In this document: positions 10,869 through 21,205 of the stretch, piece by piece | Numbering within the stretch: position 1 is the stretch's first letter | Layout of the letters: every line of letters begins with the position of its first letter | Virus record (IMG/VR): IMGVR_UViG_3300021389_000083 | Span: 1 to 33,773 of that record | Strand: one strand, 5' to 3' | DNA from: a virus | DNA: 33,773 bases | The notes under the pieces: generated by a model | What the model was told of the DNA's origin: nothing | The model's database searches: none | The model's input: only the letters and a program-made list of their open reading frames with translations | Made by a program: the position numbers and the translations under genes

Positions 10869-12458
10869 TTAATATCCAAATGTAGGATCAGACGATTGGA
10901 AGCCTGATCTTGATGTTGCAGGGTCATAGTCAAATAAAGAACTACGAGGTCTGGTCATTATACCATATCTTAAAGCGTCATACAGGTGATCTTCAGCGTG
11001 TGTATCAACGTCTTCGGGGTTTCGTTTATCTAGTGGTATGCTAGGTAGCTGAGCTACAAGGTTAGTACAATTATTAAATATCACTAGTCTAGGTTGTTCA
11101 GTAAACTCATCTATCTGTAAGCGTCTATGTATTTCGTTCTTACCGGCTATACGTGAGCCTTTAGATCTGTCTGAAGGCCGCCACCTACAACCTTTCATTA
11201 TCATTTGCTCTGCAAGGCTAGGCCCTGTATCGCCTCGTTTGTGCCACAAGGATGAGTCTAATACGCCATACCTTATAGTACCATCATCTGACTCAGCATC
11301 TAATATCATATCTGCTAAGTCTGTAGCTGTAACCTTAGAGCAATACATCTCTCTATAAACAACTAACTGTTCGTCTGGTGCTACAGCAAACCATACAACA
11401 CCCGTATAACTACCGTAACCATAATCGCAAGCCCTAAACTTAGCCCAACTATTAGGTATATCGTAAGGGGCTACTACGTGTACCTTTCGGTTAAACTCAG
11501 GGAAAGCCGCACCCTCATTGATATCCCAGTCACCCTCTAGTAACTGCTTACGCTGATGCTCTGGTAAAGATAGAAGCATGGCTTCGTAGTCTCCACTATC
11601 AGCTAAGTAAGGATTGTCAAACAAACTAGCAGGAATAAACTTACGTTTGAATAACGGTTCACCTTCTTTACTGTGGCCTTTAGGATAAGAAAGAGTTTCA
11701 CCTGTTTCTATATCTGTAGCCCAAAAAGGTTTGTTAGGTGTAGAAGGATCAATAAACATCTTCTTGACCCAAGCATGTCCCGGCCCTCCGGGGTTTGTGG
11801 TAGCCCTCATGTACAAACCTAATTCAGGTGATGCACTACGTAAACGTGAACGCATATAATTCCACGCATAGGGACTGTTCCATTGAGTCAACTCATCGAA
11901 AGCTACATAATTAAACGCCTGTCCTTGGTAACGCATAACGTCTGTGTCTTTATCCAAGTAAGACATCCATAATCTACCGCCTTGAGGTGTAGTCCATTGA
12001 GACTTTCTCTCTGACCACTTAATACCCGGAATAGCTTTAGGGTACAACTCTTGGCTTTTCTGTATAAGCTCACGTAACTCTTCTGTAGTGTGGCGTACAA
12101 GTAGGCCACTAAAGTCTTTATGGTTTAGGTTACGAAGAGGATCTGCTAGTGTGGCATAGCTCTTCCCTCCTCCGGCTGCCCCTCCATATAGTACCTCTCT
12201 TTCACTAGCCGCTAGATATTGTGTCTGTGGGCCGGGATTGGGTTGAAATACTACGTCTTGGGCATACTCTACATCGAATGGGGCTGGTGCTACTTGCGCT
12301 GGTACAGTGTGTACAGGCTCTTGCTCAACTATCTTCGTCGTAGGTGTAGTAACCGAGTCTTTCTTTTTCGAGGGCTTCGTACTGCGCTTTCGTTTCTTCG
12401 AGCCAGAGGGCAAGCTTGCGTTTAATTTTAGCAAGTGACTTACGTTTTCTTTCGACAT
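10869..12458 (-). CDS. terL: Terminase large subunit
   Basis: A 529-aa packaging ATPase/nuclease. Walker A is GGAAGGGKS (92-100) and Walker B is YVAFDE (184-189), then a motif III-like ATTNPGGPGHAW. The C-terminal RNase H-like nuclease shows D345 (ACDYGYG), D401 (GVLDSS) and the final DHLYDALRYG. It pumps DNA into the procapsid through the portal. The first 60 residues are Ser/Lys/Pro-rich, unlike other terminases, and 134 bp encoding them overlap the preceding gene in another frame. The ribosome binding site at this ATG is weak, and no internal Met or GTG start precedes the ATPase domain. Confidence 0.95.
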   Translation of the reverse strand: MSKENVSHLLKLNASLPSGSKKRKRSTKPSKKKDSVTTPTTKIVEQEPVHTVPAQVAPAPFDVEYAQDVVFQPNPGPQTQYLAASEREVLYGGAAGGGKSYATLADPLRNLNHKDFSGLLVRHTTEELRELIQKSQELYPKAIPGIKWSERKSQWTTPQGGRLWMSYLDKDTDVMRYQGQAFNYVAFDELTQWNSPYAWNYMRSRLRSASPELGLYMRATTNPGGPGHAWVKKMFIDPSTPNKPFWATDIETGETLSYPKGHSKEGEPLFKRKFIPASLFDNPYLADSGDYEAMLLSLPEHQRKQLLEGDWDINEGAAFPEFNRKVHVVAPYDIPNSWAKFRACDYGYGSYTGVVWFAVAPDEQLVVYREMYCSKVTATDLADMILDAESDDGTIRYGVLDSSLWHKRGDTGPSLAEQMIMKGCRWRPSDRSKGSRIAGKNEIHRRLQIDEFTEQPRLVIFNNCTNLVAQLPSIPLDKRNPEDVDTHAEDHLYDALRYGIMTRPRSSLFDYDPATSRSGFQSSDPTFGY

Positions 12459-17111: not shown

Positions 17112-17132
17112 GTTGTCGGACGATCCGACCAC
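17112..17132. repeat. 21-bp inverted repeat, copy 1 (variant)
   Basis: Left arm GTTGTCGGA, centre CGA, right arm TCCGACCAC. It differs from the other four copies in having the centre in the opposite sense and one arm substitution, leaving a 6-bp perfect inner stem. It lies about 115 bp before the first early gene and 40 bp before a TTGACA. Confidence 0.8.
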
Positions 17133-17171
17133 TCTCCGCTTTTCCTTGCGCATAATGCACACCAAAAGTTG

Positions 17172-17200
17172 TTGACAATTTGTTTGGCATCTGTCCTATT
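17172..17200 (+). promoter_or_regulatory. Possible rightward early promoter
   Basis: TTGACA at 17172-17177 is a perfect -35, but the best -10 candidates 18-19 bp later (CTATTG/TATTGG) are poor. It is placed correctly to transcribe the first early gene (start 17247). An alternative is TTGAAA (16942) with GATTAT (16966) 18 bp downstream. An activator may be needed. Confidence 0.35.
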
Positions 17201-17246
17201 GGTCTCATCAAATCGGCAATCAAGCCAACTACAATCGGAGATTGAT

Positions 17247-17840
17247 ATGACTAATGTAACGAAGTTAAAAGCACAAATCGAAGTTTCAGGTACAGTGAAA
17301 CTGGGTAAAAGTACCTTCAGTATAACTGAAGCTCTTGATCATGGCGCAAAGATCTATGACAAGTTATACTTGTTGCAAGAGCAACAACTGGACTACTACA
17401 GAGAATTGGGTAACATACTGTTACAAGTTCGTAGTTTGCATAAAGATAATATATCTTTCGGTAAGGCTATAGCCTCTTCAGCTTTAGCTGGAATATCAAA
17501 GCAAGACAGATCAGATACGATCTTCATCGCCGCTAACTGGATCAAGATCCAGAAGTTAAACAAGAACGGTCTCTTCGATACTCTAGGAGTATCAGCCATC
17601 AGAAAGAGGGTCAAAGCTTCAGACCAACCCAAGACTAAGGTTGGTTCAGCAGGTAATGTTTCCAAAGGAAAGAAAGCCTCAACAGCTAAAGCTGAACCGA
17701 AGCAAGACAATAGCAAAGCTATACCGAAACCTAAGACTGAACTTGACCTAGCAAAGCTAGTACATCAGATCATGACCGAGGCAGGGTTTAGCAAAGCTAC
17801 CTTCACTAAAGAGCTTACAAAGCTCTACAAGAAATCATAA
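17247..17840 (+). CDS. First early protein, unknown, with basic linker (197 aa)
   Basis: Not recognised. I start it at ATG 17247 (GGAG seven bases upstream) rather than at 17169, which lies inside the presumed promoter. Residues 1-115 form a mostly helical domain (ITEALDHGAKIYDKLYLLQE, then QDRSDTIFIAANWIKI). A Lys/Ala/Ser/Pro-rich linker with KAxPKxxxSKAIPKPK follows, then a small helical C-terminal domain (LDLAKLVHQIMTEAGFSKAT). First-gene position, own terminator and basic linker suggest an abundant early DNA-binding or host-takeover protein. That is inference. Confidence 0.7.
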   Translation: MTNVTKLKAQIEVSGTVKLGKSTFSITEALDHGAKIYDKLYLLQEQQLDYYRELGNILLQVRSLHKDNISFGKAIASSALAGISKQDRSDTIFIAANWIKIQKLNKNGLFDTLGVSAIRKRVKASDQPKTKVGSAGNVSKGKKASTAKAEPKQDNSKAIPKPKTELDLAKLVHQIMTEAGFSKATFTKELTKLYKKS

Positions 17841-17875
17841 CTTAAGCCCTTCGAAGCTTACTTCACATCTTATTG

Positions 17876-17902
17876 CAAGCCCTACGGGGCTTGTTTTTGT
17901 TT
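17876..17902 (+). terminator. Intrinsic terminator after the first early gene
   Basis: CAAGCCC (17876-17882) and GGGCTTG (17887-17893) form a perfect 7-bp stem with loop TACG, followed by TTTTTGTTTG. It closes the first early unit, so the next genes need read-through or their own promoter near the second 21-bp repeat. Confidence 0.85.
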
Positions 17903-17921
17903 GTAATACAAACAGTAAAAC

Positions 17922-17942
17922 GTTGTCGGATCGTCCGACGAC
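17922..17942. repeat. 21-bp inverted repeat, copy 2
   Basis: Arms GTTGTCGGA and TCCGACGAC around TCG. The mismatch at the third position is a T-G pair, so an RNA copy would still form a 9-bp stem. It lies 20 bp after the terminator tail and 29 bp before the start codon of the next gene. Confidence 0.85.
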
Positions 17943-17971
17943 GACTTAACGTAGTTAAATAGGAGATTAAA

Positions 17972-18274
17972 ATGCGAATAGGAGATGAACAATTTGTTCA
18001 AGACATGGGGTCTATCTTTGATCACATCAAAGCAGGATTTTATAGGATTACTGGAGAGCCAGATGAAAGCTTTGAAAAGTACAAGTATCACTATAATTAT
18101 AAATGCTTTGATGCTTTCTTCTTAGGTGTGAAGTATGGCCTACGTGATGTGATGACATTTGACATAGAGGCAGGTGCTTACAAGCATTGGAAAGACAATG
18201 AAGAGTATTACAAAGAGCATGGCGTTTACAAAGAAGCCTTCCCTCGCTTCATTAAATATAAGGATCTATCATGA
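17972..18274 (+). CDS. Hypothetical early protein (100 aa)
   Basis: Not recognised. A 100-residue, Tyr/Phe/Lys-rich soluble protein (DEQFVQDMGSIFDHIKAGFY, then YKCFDAFFLGVKYGL and HWKDNEEYYKEHGVYKEAF). AGGAG lies 7-8 bases before its ATG. The stop overlaps the next start as ATGA. It is the first gene after the second 21-bp repeat, so it heads its own early cluster. Confidence 0.65.
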   Translation: MRIGDEQFVQDMGSIFDHIKAGFYRITGEPDESFEKYKYHYNYKCFDAFFLGVKYGLRDVMTFDIEAGAYKHWKDNEEYYKEHGVYKEAFPRFIKYKDLS

Positions 18275-18474
18275 CGTATGGGGTGTCAAAACGTGACCGA
18301 CTAGCCAGACGTGGCGACAAGCGATGGCGTAGCACATGGCATAGGCAGATGTTGTCGATGAACAGAACCAGAGCCATTGACAAACGAGATGGGATCGGCC
18401 TTGATAGTAAGACAAATATTAAATCGTTGTCGGATCGTCCGACGACACTAACAACGGAGACTAATAATGAATAA
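18271..18474 (+). CDS. Hypothetical basic early protein (67 aa), 3' end spans a 21-bp repeat
   Basis: Not recognised. Arg/Lys-rich (SKRDRLARRGDKRWRSTWHR), so possibly nucleic-acid-binding. It starts by ATGA coupling to the upstream gene, with AGGATC as a weak ribosome site. Its last 17 residues run through the third 21-bp repeat (18426-18446), encoding SDRPTT, and overlap the next start by 8 bp. The other repeats are intergenic, so the repeat may have been inserted into the gene's end. Confidence 0.5.
   Translation: MTYGVSKRDRLARRGDKRWRSTWHRQMLSMNRTRAIDKRDGIGLDSKTNIKSLSDRPTTLTTETNNE
18426..18446. repeat. 21-bp inverted repeat, copy 3
   Basis: Same 21 bases as copies 2, 4 and 5. It is followed by ACACTAACAACGGAGACTA and an ATG 20 bp after its end. 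The flank closely matches the one after copy 5, so repeat, spacer and ribosome site look like one duplicated unit. Confidence 0.85.
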
Positions 18475-18649
18475 CCCTATTGAACCAACTGGATTGGTAC
18501 ACACACCAGATAGCATGGAAGATTTTATAGCTATCATAGATAGGCTGAATACGGAAGAAAGAATTGTCGCTTACACATATTCTATGATGGCTTGGAACTT
18601 GGCTTGTAGAATAACTATGGAACACTTAAAGGAGATGCAGAATGGCTAA
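18467..18649 (+). CDS. Hypothetical early protein (60 aa)
   Basis: Not recognised. A 60-residue, acidic and helical protein (SMEDFIAIIDRLNTEERIVA, then MMAWNLACRITMEHLKEM). The ribosome site CGGAGA lies about 8 bases before ATG, directly after the third repeat. Its end overlaps the following gene by 8 bp, so the two are coupled. Confidence 0.6.
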   Translation: MNNPIEPTGLVHTPDSMEDFIAIIDRLNTEERIVAYTYSMMAWNLACRITMEHLKEMQNG

Positions 18650-18956
18650 GAATTTACTAGGAAAATCACGCACTAAAGAGAACCCTTATGCTATATGGCA
18701 GGGCTTCGGTGCATTCGGTGACACTGAGGTACGATTGCTTAAGACGTACCAAACACCGGCTAATGAAGAGAAGAACCAATTCGCTAGATGGTTTGTGGCT
18801 GTTAAGTCTGACCATACGTATGGATCTTTTGACATGGGTGATAGCTATATACGTGAGGTGTTAAGAAATATGACACTCAAGCAAGCTGACCCTTTGTTCG
18901 AAGAACAGTACGGCATTACTGTACCTGATGGGGTAGAACTAACTGAATGGGTTTAG
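18642..18956 (+). CDS. Hypothetical early protein (104 aa)
   Basis: Not recognised. Alpha/beta-looking soluble protein (NPYAIWQGFGAFGDTEVRLL, then QFARWFVAVKSDHTYGSFDM and DSYIREVLRNMTLKQADPLF). GGAGATG lies before its ATG. It ends immediately before a TATAAC box and the fourth 21-bp repeat, closing this small cluster. Confidence 0.65.
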   Translation: MAKNLLGKSRTKENPYAIWQGFGAFGDTEVRLLKTYQTPANEEKNQFARWFVAVKSDHTYGSFDMGDSYIREVLRNMTLKQADPLFEEQYGITVPDGVELTEWV

Positions 18957-18962
18957 TATAAC
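18957..18962 (+). promoter_or_regulatory. TATAAC box set 5 bp before the fourth repeat
   Basis: TATAACTAAT just before the repeat matches the -10 of the window's better promoters. A 17-bp spacer leads back to a poor -35 (TAGAAC, three matches). If used, transcription would start at about the first base of the 21-bp repeat, making the repeat either a +1 operator or the transcript's 5' hairpin. Confidence 0.35.
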
Positions 18963-18967
18963 TAATC

Positions 18968-18988
18968 GTTGTCGGATCGTCCGACGAC
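18968..18988. repeat. 21-bp inverted repeat, copy 4
   Basis: Identical 21 bases. It begins 5 bp after a TATAAC box and ends 28 bp before the next start codon (19017). The reading frame that opens inside it (ATC/ATG region at 18969) is not the real gene start. Confidence 0.85.
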
Positions 18989-19016
18989 GGTGACACAAAC
19001 AATAGGAGAATACAAA

Positions 19017-19343
19017 ATGACTAATTATAAATTAACTGTAGAAGATGGGTCAATATATAAATGGAGTGATGATACTGAAGGTTATGACGAACATTATTAT
19101 AACACTCACGGTTTCACATTAGGACACTTTGAAACTATTGACCTTGCCAAAGCAGAACTAGAAGAATTCTTAGGTAGTACCCCTGATTATGAAGCATATG
19201 AAGATTATAACTATGTAGATTGTGACAGGCTAGAAGATAAAAACGGCAATAAAGATAAAGATGGTGATTACCTTGGGATGTATACTGTAGTTCTAGAAAA
19301 GATTACCTCTGTTTCATTTAGTAGTAAATGTAAAGGAGAATAA
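19017..19343 (+). CDS. Hypothetical acidic early protein (108 aa)
   Basis: Not recognised. Start chosen at ATG 19017 (AGGAG nine bases upstream), not at the in-frame ATG within the repeat. The protein is rich in Asp/Glu/Tyr (KWSDDTEGYDEHYYNTHGF, then TPDYEAYEDYNYVDCDR). A DKNGNKDKDGDY run near residues 80-91 is reminiscent of a calcium-binding loop but is not a clean EF-hand. Strong acidity would suit a DNA-mimic or inhibitor, though that is speculation. Confidence 0.65.
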   Translation: MTNYKLTVEDGSIYKWSDDTEGYDEHYYNTHGFTLGHFETIDLAKAELEEFLGSTPDYEAYEDYNYVDCDRLEDKNGNKDKDGDYLGMYTVVLEKITSVSFSSKCKGE

Positions 19344-19346
19344 CAA

Positions 19347-19610
19347 ATGAAAGACACACACTTTACAGTAGAAGATCCCGGACGTGATGAGGTGCAAGCA
19401 GTGTTCCTCAAAGCGGCACTCAAGATGATACGTATTGGCCTCAAGCCGGCACGTCATCTGACTAAGACTAAACTAATGGCTAAAGCTTCACAGATTAGTG
19501 GCGTGAAGTACAAGCGTACCGAGATAGACAAAGCTATTGAGGACATGGAGACTATCATCAAGGATCACTTAGATCCAACTTTACCTGCAGGATATAGAGG
19601 AGATAACTAA
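19347..19610 (+). CDS. Hypothetical early protein (87 aa)
   Basis: Not recognised. A small helical protein (EVQAVFLKAALKMIRIGLKP, then YKRTEIDKAIEDMETIIKD) with charged ends. AAGGAG lies before the ATG at 19347, three bases after the previous stop. It overlaps the next gene by one base (TAATG). Confidence 0.6.
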   Translation: MKDTHFTVEDPGRDEVQAVFLKAALKMIRIGLKPARHLTKTKLMAKASQISGVKYKRTEIDKAIEDMETIIKDHLDPTLPAGYRGDN

Positions 19611-19954
19611 TGGGAAATAGAGCAACACTTGAAGTAATAAGCGACAACTACACAGGCAAGGAATCAGAGTGCTACATATACCTACACTGGAATGGTAGCC
19701 CCAACACTGTGACACAACTCGTAAGAGGTGCATCATCTAAAATGCGTAAGTCTGATGTTAGCTATGCTACAGCTAGACTGATAGCTCACATCTGTAGCAA
19801 GGTGGAAGGTGGTCTGTCTGTAGGTGTACGTCCTGCTATGGAGAAGTACAAAGAAGAGTGGGACAACGGACACTACATCATAGACATAAGCAATGGTCAC
19901 ATCAAGAATGATGGTAGGGTTGTAGCTAGAAACATAGAGTTCGGTAACTTCTAG
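19610..19954 (+). CDS. Conserved phage protein of unknown function (114 aa)
   Basis: A 114-aa protein beginning MGNRATLEVISDNYTGKESE, then CYIYLHWNGSPNTVTQLVRG and DVSYATARLIAHIC, ending in NGHIKNDGRVVARNIEFGNF. I recall very similar small proteins in many phages infecting diverse hosts, but no biochemical role. It looks like a compact alpha/beta fold. Start overlaps the preceding stop; the next gene begins one base after its stop. Confidence 0.7.
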   Translation: MGNRATLEVISDNYTGKESECYIYLHWNGSPNTVTQLVRGASSKMRKSDVSYATARLIAHICSKVEGGLSVGVRPAMEKYKEEWDNGHYIIDISNGHIKNDGRVVARNIEFGNF

Positions 19955-19955
19955 C

Positions 19956-20156
19956 ATGGAACACGTAGTAGAAGTATGCCCTACCTGTATCAAGAAGATG
20001 AAGGTGTATGAGACACGAGAACACTTAACTAGGAATGGCATTCTAACGAGGCGACGAAGCCGCAGATGTTTGGAGTGCGACTACAGGAGTACAACGGTAG
20101 AGATACCGGAGTACTTCTTGTACCATTACTTAAAAGAAATAGGAGAAGAGAAATGA
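19956..20156 (+). CDS. NrdR-like zinc-ribbon protein (66 aa)
   Basis: A 66-residue protein with CPTC (Cys8, Cys11) and CLEC (Cys38, Cys41). The spacing and context (KVYETRE, GILTRRRSRRCLECDYRSTT, VEIPE) closely follow the N-terminal zinc ribbon of the ribonucleotide-reductase repressor NrdR. NrdR's ATP-cone domain is absent. As the phage also carries a class II ribonucleotide reductase, a DNA-binding regulator is plausible. It could equally be an Ogr-like zinc-finger activator. Start lacks a strong ribosome site and lies one base after the previous stop. Function inferred. Confidence 0.65.
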   Translation: MEHVVEVCPTCIKKMKVYETREHLTRNGILTRRRSRRCLECDYRSTTVEIPEYFLYHYLKEIGEEK

Positions 20157-20356
20157 TTAAACCATTAGACGTAGAGATATTAATAGGCGGTCATGCATAC
20201 ACATGGAATGGTAAGGCTACCTTCAATGTATTCGAGAATGACCATAGGTTTAGGGAGAAGTACAACTGTGACTGCTTCACTATGCATGACGTAACAGGTT
20301 GGGATAAAGCTATGGAAGCTATACTTGACTATCACTGGACACACCATTGGCAGTAG
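20153..20356 (+). CDS. Hypothetical early protein (67 aa)
   Basis: Not recognised. Start taken at ATG 20153 (AGGAGAAG upstream, ATGA overlap with the zinc-ribbon gene). A 67-residue, Trp/His-rich, probably small alpha/beta protein (PLDVEILIGGHAYTWNGKAT, then CDCFTMHDVTGWDKAMEAIL). The two clustered Cys and many His could bind metal, but no known motif fits. Confidence 0.6.
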   Translation: MIKPLDVEILIGGHAYTWNGKATFNVFENDHRFREKYNCDCFTMHDVTGWDKAMEAILDYHWTHHWQ

Positions 20357-20369
20357 GAGGGATTGACAA

Positions 20370-20546
20370 ATGGGTACTATAGGTATTAAAAAGAAGAAAG
20401 AAGATCTTATTGAGCAAGCCATCATAGACTGGGTAGACAAGCAAGATCATTCTGTACTCAGACGCTTAGTAGCTGATGACATGTGGGAATATTATCGCAA
20501 CGCTGATGATGCTACCCTCAAAGAATTTATATTTACATATAAGTAA
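20370..20546 (+). CDS. Hypothetical early protein (58 aa)
   Basis: Not recognised. ATG at 20370 follows AGGAGG with about 10 bases between. The frame encodes MGTIGIKKKKEDLIEQAII, then DWVDKQDHSVLRRLVADDMW and DATLKEFIFTYK, ending at TAA 20544. It is short, charged and helical, and closes the cluster before the fifth repeat. Confidence 0.6.
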   Translation: MGTIGIKKKKEDLIEQAIIDWVDKQDHSVLRRLVADDMWEYYRNADDATLKEFIFTYK

Positions 20547-20548
20547 TC

Positions 20549-20569
20549 GTTGTCGGATCGTCCGACGAC
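20549..20569. repeat. 21-bp inverted repeat, copy 5
   Basis: Identical 21 bases. It starts two bases after a stop codon and five bases after a TATAAG box (20538-20543), the same spacing as copy 4. Its end is 21 bp before the ATG of the HhH gene. No further copy was seen to the right. Confidence 0.85.
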
Positions 20570-20590: not shown

Positions 20591-21205
20591 ATGTATCAAC
20601 GTGACTGCACAATCATAACCGATCATAGCATATCATCACCAGATGGTTTGTATGACACAATAGAGTTTACTCTATGCACTATCAACATGCCCCTATCCAG
20701 AGTGCATACTCAACGTGCATCTATAAAGCAGGAAGGCATCCACTCTAAGTGGGTATCGAGTGCCAAAGCTAAGGGTATACTGTATGCCCAACAACATAAG
20801 CAGGAGCTACATGCCCTGATGGTAAACATCCGTGAGACTATGGGTGTGGACAGTGTGGATGCAGGTCAGGCTGTAGTAGATCTATTCATGCGGATACCAT
20901 CCATAGGCATGGTCAAGGCAGGGTTCATAGCTCAGATGTGTGGCTTCAACGTGGCGTGTCTCGACAGGCACAACGTGCGTATGCTTGGCATGTCTGAGAC
21001 TGCACTAAAAGTTAGCAAGACAATCAAGCCTGAGCTTAGGCTCAAGAAGATCCGTAAGTACATAGAGTTGTGTCAGGTGTCAGGTGCTAAGCACTGGTGG
21101 GATACGTGGTGTAACTTTGTAGCAGAGAAGGGTGGCATGAATGCTTCCCTACCTACAGGTGATGCGGTGTCAGCCTATCACGTAACAGCAATCATGGAGA
21201 TATAA
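20591..21205 (+). CDS. HhH (endonuclease III-like) DNA-glycosylase-like protein
   Basis: A 204-aa protein, start chosen at ATG 20591 (GGAG nine bases upstream) over 20576. Residues 102-130 read RIPSIGMVKAGFIAQM, then VACLDRHNVR. This resembles a helix-hairpin-helix plus the Gly/Pro...Asp stretch of HhH-GPD base-excision enzymes (typically LPGxGxxxA ... VDxxVxR). Asp125 would be the catalytic acid; the Lys of bifunctional enzymes is not apparent. No iron-sulfur Cys cluster is seen. It may remove or sense modified bases, which would fit with the Mom-like modifier nearby. Family placement is by motif only. Confidence 0.55.
   Translation: MYQRDCTIITDHSISSPDGLYDTIEFTLCTINMPLSRVHTQRASIKQEGIHSKWVSSAKAKGILYAQQHKQELHALMVNIRETMGVDSVDAGQAVVDLFMRIPSIGMVKAGFIAQMCGFNVACLDRHNVRMLGMSETALKVSKTIKPELRLKKIRKYIELCQVSGAKHWWDTWCNFVAEKGGMNASLPTGDAVSAYHVTAIMEI

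Follow-up and report, generated by a model that had tools for sequence, protein, structure and literature searches.

The virus record IMGVR_UViG_3300021389_000083 of IMG/VR was analysed over a stretch of 33,773 nucleotides (nt), positions 1 to 33,773 of that record, which is called the window below. It encodes a PolA-type polymerase, a helicase, a primase, an integrase, a Mom-like protein and divergent structural genes, and the best named helicase matches were CRP-603, CRP-2, CRP-207, CRP-1 and HMO-2011. From this gene set and the helicase matches, the phage was placed in the HMO-2011-type group, which is reported to dominate among marine viruses and to be broadly distributed (PMC9038755). The elements under study are five short inverted repeats at 17112-20569, in the early region, together with the gene that lies between the first two of them (17247-17840, + strand), whose product is the candidate protein for binding them.

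Repeats were searched over the whole window on both strands, allowing 3 mismatches at most; the control consisted of 100 shuffled windows. The 21-mer GTTGTCGGATCGTCCGACGAC occurred exactly on the + strand at 17922, 18426, 18968 and 20549, and a fifth copy (17112-17132) matched it on the - strand with 2 mismatches, as an inverted variant. No further match was found in the window at ≤3 mismatches, and the shuffled windows gave 0 matches in 100 (chance expectation 0). A preliminary description of this DNA had reported four identical copies and one variant, absent elsewhere in the window, and both statements were confirmed. It had also placed the identical copies shortly upstream of start codons with no T-run after any copy, which was likewise found: the distances from copy end to ATG were 29, 20, 28 and 21 nt, in order, and no repeat copy was among the listed intrinsic terminators, which sets the repeats apart from that class of element.

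Copy 1 (17112-17132, core 17115-17129, - strand) lies upstream of the probable regulator promoter, 42 base pairs (bp) from its TTGACA. On the + strand, copy 2 (17922-17942, core 17925-17939) precedes the ATG at 17972, copy 3 (18426-18446, core 18429-18443) the ATG at 18467, copy 4 (18968-18988, core 18971-18985) the ATG at 19017, and copy 5 (20549-20569, core 20552-20566) the ATG at 20591; an orthologous site of copy 5 is present in the sister lineage L196/L202. The repeats had been described as standing before genes, and this held for the start codons but not for an intergenic position of copy 3, which is within the 3' end of an open reading frame (ORF) at 18271-18474. As this ORF is conserved across lineages (it is small and Arg-rich, and the reading frame differs where the repeat lies in its 3' end), the repeat set is not purely intergenic.

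The gene at 17247-17840 encodes a protein of 197 amino acids. The probable -35 element of its promoter, TTGACA (17172-17177, + strand), is conserved in 12 homologous loci from three lineages, and in 12/12 of these a site was measured 38-44 bp upstream of it, with differing DNA in between. An intrinsic terminator follows the gene (17875-17894, + strand); it is the only strong + strand intrinsic terminator nearby and stands just 5' of copy 2, and similar GC hairpins with T-runs occur here in several lineages. Distant homologues of the protein are gp74 of HMO-2011 (hhalign E value 2.8e-7) and gp01 of CRP-1 and CRP-345 (1.4e-6 with the alignment of the three; CRP-1 gp01 by itself was weak, with an E value of 0.008 and 5% probability). 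No family match was obtained in Pfam, PHROGs, NCBIfam or PADLOC, and in Pfam neither the protein nor its domain had a match, DUF3102 included; sequence and fold searches of the PDB returned nothing useful, and no homologue was found in bacterial genomes by the search run. In the AlphaFold model, helices were placed at residues 68-76 and 85-96 (domain mean predicted local distance difference test score of 90), the second being the predicted recognition helix, with K85 as its first residue and its codons at 17499-17534 (+ strand).

The same sites were found in seven IMG/VR contigs, with five each in a 48-kilobase (kb) and a 45-kb contig. Sister lineages were reached by a helicase profile search combined with a pattern scan. 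The core common to the sites of these relatives is an odd palindrome of 15 bp, GTCGGA-N3-TCCGAC; a locus usually has 3-6 sites, and in sister lineages the flanks TACT/AGTA or ATAT/AGAT surround the unchanged core. The site listing comprised 75 sites at ≤1 core mismatch; those with a 3-nt spacer made up 58 distinct 31-mers. The stem sequence was constant and the loop varied (TCG, CGA, TGG, CCA, CGG, CCG, CTGA or CAGA), such that within one genome the spacer changes in all copies while the arms stay. In the diverged sisters L016/L017 both 9-bp arms are kept around a 4-nt spacer, CTGA or CAGA, in the same places. Most listed downstream copies were 13-40 nt 5' of a start codon; a further class sits in the middle of ORFs, namely homologues of ORF 24008, an acidic ORF and the regulator gene, where the site falls in the linker (lineage B and CRP-1/CRP-345). 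Close relatives thus do carry inverted repeats at the corresponding places, as the preliminary description had required for its proposal. A looser pattern, GTTGTCGGA-N2-6-TCCGAC, was also tried on viral contigs and discarded; among the matches listed, those outside the kin were scattered and chance-like.

Isolates extended the comparison. HMO-2011 carries five copies of a different palindrome, AGTCCGACAGCGGACT, grouped around its homologue of the gene in a similar layout and with none in the remaining genome; in CRP-1 and CRP-345 another palindrome, YGTCCAASNTTGGACR, is present five times, again in a similar layout around the homologue. Neither a gene homologue nor a comparable palindrome set was found in CRP-603 (whole genome) or in the parts covered of CRP-2, CRP-207, CRP-3 and HTVC033P. 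The sites and the regulator gene thus co-occur, both being present in HMO-2011, CRP-1 and CRP-345 and both lacking in the stretches covered of the five other isolates.

When the regulator was used as a profile, 39 loci were retrieved, and the relation between protein and site was scored on 108 distinct sites. Most lineages have K or R where the window has K85, at the start of the second helix; L267/L269 have F there, and L279-L290 have M. At the outermost position of the core, the base was G in 144/144 half-sites with K/R homologues, and with F/M homologues it was A, C or T in 71/72 and G in 1/72; these counts do not amount to a probability, because sites within a genome are non-independent, and the true evidence is a sister pair plus a second lineage. 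L265 (K, GTCGGA) and L267/L269 (F, A/C-TCGGA) form that pair, the closest of the sisters, and their domains are near-identical with few other nearby differences; on the tree, two label changes between K/R and F/M were required. Arg and Lys commonly read G in protein-DNA contacts. By this comparison, the putative operator sequence covaries with the predicted recognition helix of the regulator, and one residue tracks one letter of the site.

Several further sequences were observed near the sites and the gene. In the window, a block of the form CTTTTCC-N-GCATAATGC-N-AAAAG occupies 17138-17170, between copy 1 and TTGACA; it is conserved in two lineages and may be a second regulator site. The palindrome GTGATCAC stands directly before the operator upstream of the regulator in CRP-1/CRP-345 (L249, L248) and lies about 75-90 nt before the operator in L016/L017. 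The regulator of L016/L017, the sole lineage seen with 4-nt spacers, has diverged from that of the window over residues 1-83, the N-terminal half, and is near-identical in the C-terminal half; a connection between the longer spacer and the diverged half was considered and set aside as suggestive, since it comes from one lineage. In L265, L266 and L273, the region before the regulator has clustered ACTTAAGTA-like repeats at a distance of about 800-1100 nt. A hairpin with the invariant loop GATACTTTAGTGA and differing self-complementary stems stands just 5' of operator copies at 1-43 and 1200-1240 of the HMO-2011 locus (L242) and at 990-1030 of the CRP-1 locus (L241); it had no Rfam match and is possibly a structured RNA. 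No Rfam match was obtained in the window, and among six other loci the sole match was a transfer RNA (tRNA) gene in L230 (11579-11652), with an operator copy about 20 nt later at 11672. A perfect consensus sigma-70 promoter, TTGACA-17-TATAAT, is present at 16592-16564 on the - strand, directed towards the structural genes.

Taken together, the repeats are very likely double-stranded DNA operators of the 17247-17840 protein, through which this protein would regulate the early operon as well as its own gene. Comparison among relatives shows the site family, the link between site and gene and the residue-to-base rule, and strongly supports the adjacent phage-encoded protein as the binding partner; binding itself, the dimer state and the repressive sign are predicted from these. 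The regulator would be made from its own TTGACA promoter, with transcription ended by the terminator, and would bind, probably in dimeric form, to the 15-bp pseudo-palindromic core with its lineage-specific flanks. Helices 68-76 and 85-96 would form a helix-turn-helix-like unit for this, in which K85 would specify the outermost G in either half-site. One bound site would lie about 85 bp upstream of the regulator's own transcription start and four others along the early operon, and binding there would most likely repress or road-block transcription, in the manner of other dispersed phage operators and of stoperators. An operator for an early repressor had been the second suggestion of the preliminary description; comparison with relatives supports operators in DNA whose cognate protein is encoded by the phage, while the repression is something we infer.

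Several observations count against operators of this kind. Sigma-70 promoter scores before the downstream copies had a mean equal to that of shuffles (scores of at least 9 of 12 in 10% vs 2.5%, mostly from near-identical kin), and promoters at these places were rejected; as the mean score does not exceed chance there, repression of initiation is not evident at the downstream copies. All that L277 shows is a degraded upstream site. The residue-to-base rule draws on two inferred changes, the F change having modest branch support, and on sites that are not independent within a genome. Neither a solved fold nor a Pfam family backs DNA binding by the regulator, and its fold matches in viral libraries were uncharacterised or showed weak similarity to two DUF3102 proteins in BFVD. 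Finally, the centre triplets on the early strand are uneven (T..G 32 vs C..A 8). Either a skew in composition or an effect of RNA or strand might account for this excess; the GC and AT skews of the early strand are both positive, which is a possible explanation.

For the mode of action, the position of the sites near ribosome sites or inside genes, together with a promoter signal no higher than chance in mean score, makes a block of elongation or read-through a better fit than classical promoter operators. Whether as repressor or as elongation road-block, the mode is suggested by this placement. A broader proposal is less likely than not: an undescribed family of regulators in HMO-2011-type phages may meter early transcription by road-block from usually 3-6 dispersed pseudo-palindromic sites, placed in genes and in the regulator's own coding sequence as well, with specificity evolving through single residues of the recognition helix, all sites of a genome changing in step, and separate immunity-like types among abundant marine phages as the outcome.

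The main rival as to mode keeps the same operators and protein, with the protein acting as an activator or antiterminator that aids its own promoter and lets the polymerase pass the terminator, so that the early genes are turned on. In its favour, activators are known to work from distances such as the roughly 85 bp between the upstream copy and the expected start; the early genes are cut off from the regulator by a terminator, and the search for a strong + strand promoter of their own found none. Against it, the downstream sites are so near to ribosome sites and start codons that a promoter would not fit in after them, the mid-ORF sites are ill-placed for activation, and no activator domain was recognised in the regulator. 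An activating role is considered rather unlikely on this balance.

The preliminary description had seen a hint of an RNA-level role in a T-G mismatch in the arms, which would pair as G-U in RNA. The mismatch is conserved in the four identical copies but not in the copy at 17112, where the pair reads T·C when taken on the + strand (G·A on the - strand), and the flanks of sister lineages carry C·C or G·G, so that the mismatch types seen (T·G, T·C, C·C and G·G) do not bear out the hint. The covariation of the arms that had been proposed as a check was absent from the core beyond composition: the half-sites pair no better than composition predicts and position 7 pairs less than predicted. Flank positions 5 and 6 do pair in excess in this test, which results from pooling lineages with different flanks. 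An RNA hairpin with a conserved G-U pair was accordingly dropped as the leading explanation, given the varied mismatches, a copy upstream of a promoter element and the mid-ORF copies. In a wider form, the repeats would be leader hairpins of early messenger RNAs, serving an antitermination protein such as the product of ORF 18271-18474, or controlling translation or messenger stability. The 21-mer does fold as RNA (-11.7 kcal/mol), as any near-palindrome would, and the closeness of most downstream copies to start codons, the T..G excess and the copy carried by the short Arg-rich ORF would suit such a role. Against it stand the constant stem with a variable loop, the flank mismatches and the reduced pairing at position 7, the copy at near-fixed spacing upstream of a promoter element and the sites within ORFs. 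The Arg-rich ORF was rejected as a partner, because its profile finds none in HMO-2011 or CRP-1, though short basic ORFs occur there; the residue-to-base rule would also need a separate explanation. RNA elements are accordingly judged improbable.

A very improbable account treats the repeats as sites of a host regulator or of another phage DNA function (partition or replication), with the neighbouring gene as a bystander. It draws on the comparative nature of the protein-site link, binding being predicted, and on partition, which dispersed palindromes also serve in some phages; but the sites vary in step with one residue of the adjacent protein, gene-less isolates are without sites in the stretches covered, different palindromes occur among relatives of one phage group, and no ParA-like partner was recognised by eye among the window ORFs. 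Mobile or selfish short repeats, or chance, would accommodate the near-identity of copies within a genome but are a negligible prospect, with 0 matches expected by chance, positions relative to genes and promoter conserved in relatives, and core and flank changing by lineage.

The regulator is most likely an undescribed virus-encoded one whose gene adjoins its sites, and the literature searched on HMO-2011-type isolates did not mention a repressor, promoter, palindrome or inverted repeat. The analysis provides abundant marine phages with a named candidate regulator, its putative operators and a one-residue recognition rule, and the natural variants can be used to study the joint change of a regulator and all its sites.

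Among known systems, the cluster A mycobacteriophage stoperators bound by repressors of the L5 type are asymmetric 13-mers, bound by a monomer and present at >20 per genome (PMC6550527, PMC9283540). The set described here resembles them in a phage protein with dispersed sites in short operon gaps and at its own gene, in the site upstream of that gene at the conserved spacing from TTGACA given above, and in sites and regulator that diverge together between lineages. It differs in the near-palindromic 15-bp core, in the low number of sites (five in the window, in the 48-kb and 45-kb sister contigs and in HMO-2011) clustered in the early region, and in a regulator of no known family. In the stoperator system the bound repressor halts elongation and the orientation of the sites follows transcription; in the present set, the flank asymmetry is found in either orientation and the centre triplets on the early strand are T..G more often than C..A (32 vs 8). 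In Streptomyces phage phiC31, conserved inverted repeats are dispersed palindromic operators of one repressor, some of them away from promoters; the present sites share this layout and are not known to be related to them in sequence. Operators of the lambda type are odd-length pseudo-palindromes with non-identical half-sites, as here, but the present sites are scattered along the early operon and are neither tandem nor overlapping a divergent promoter pair. The nut/boxB elements of lambda are small early-operon hairpins, of which boxB is recognised via its loop; a hairpin-capable early-operon sequence and a nearby Arg-rich ORF are shared with them, and the constant stem with a varying loop is not. 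The set would thus work like dispersed phage operator systems, yet the symmetry and number of its sites place it outside the stoperator family.

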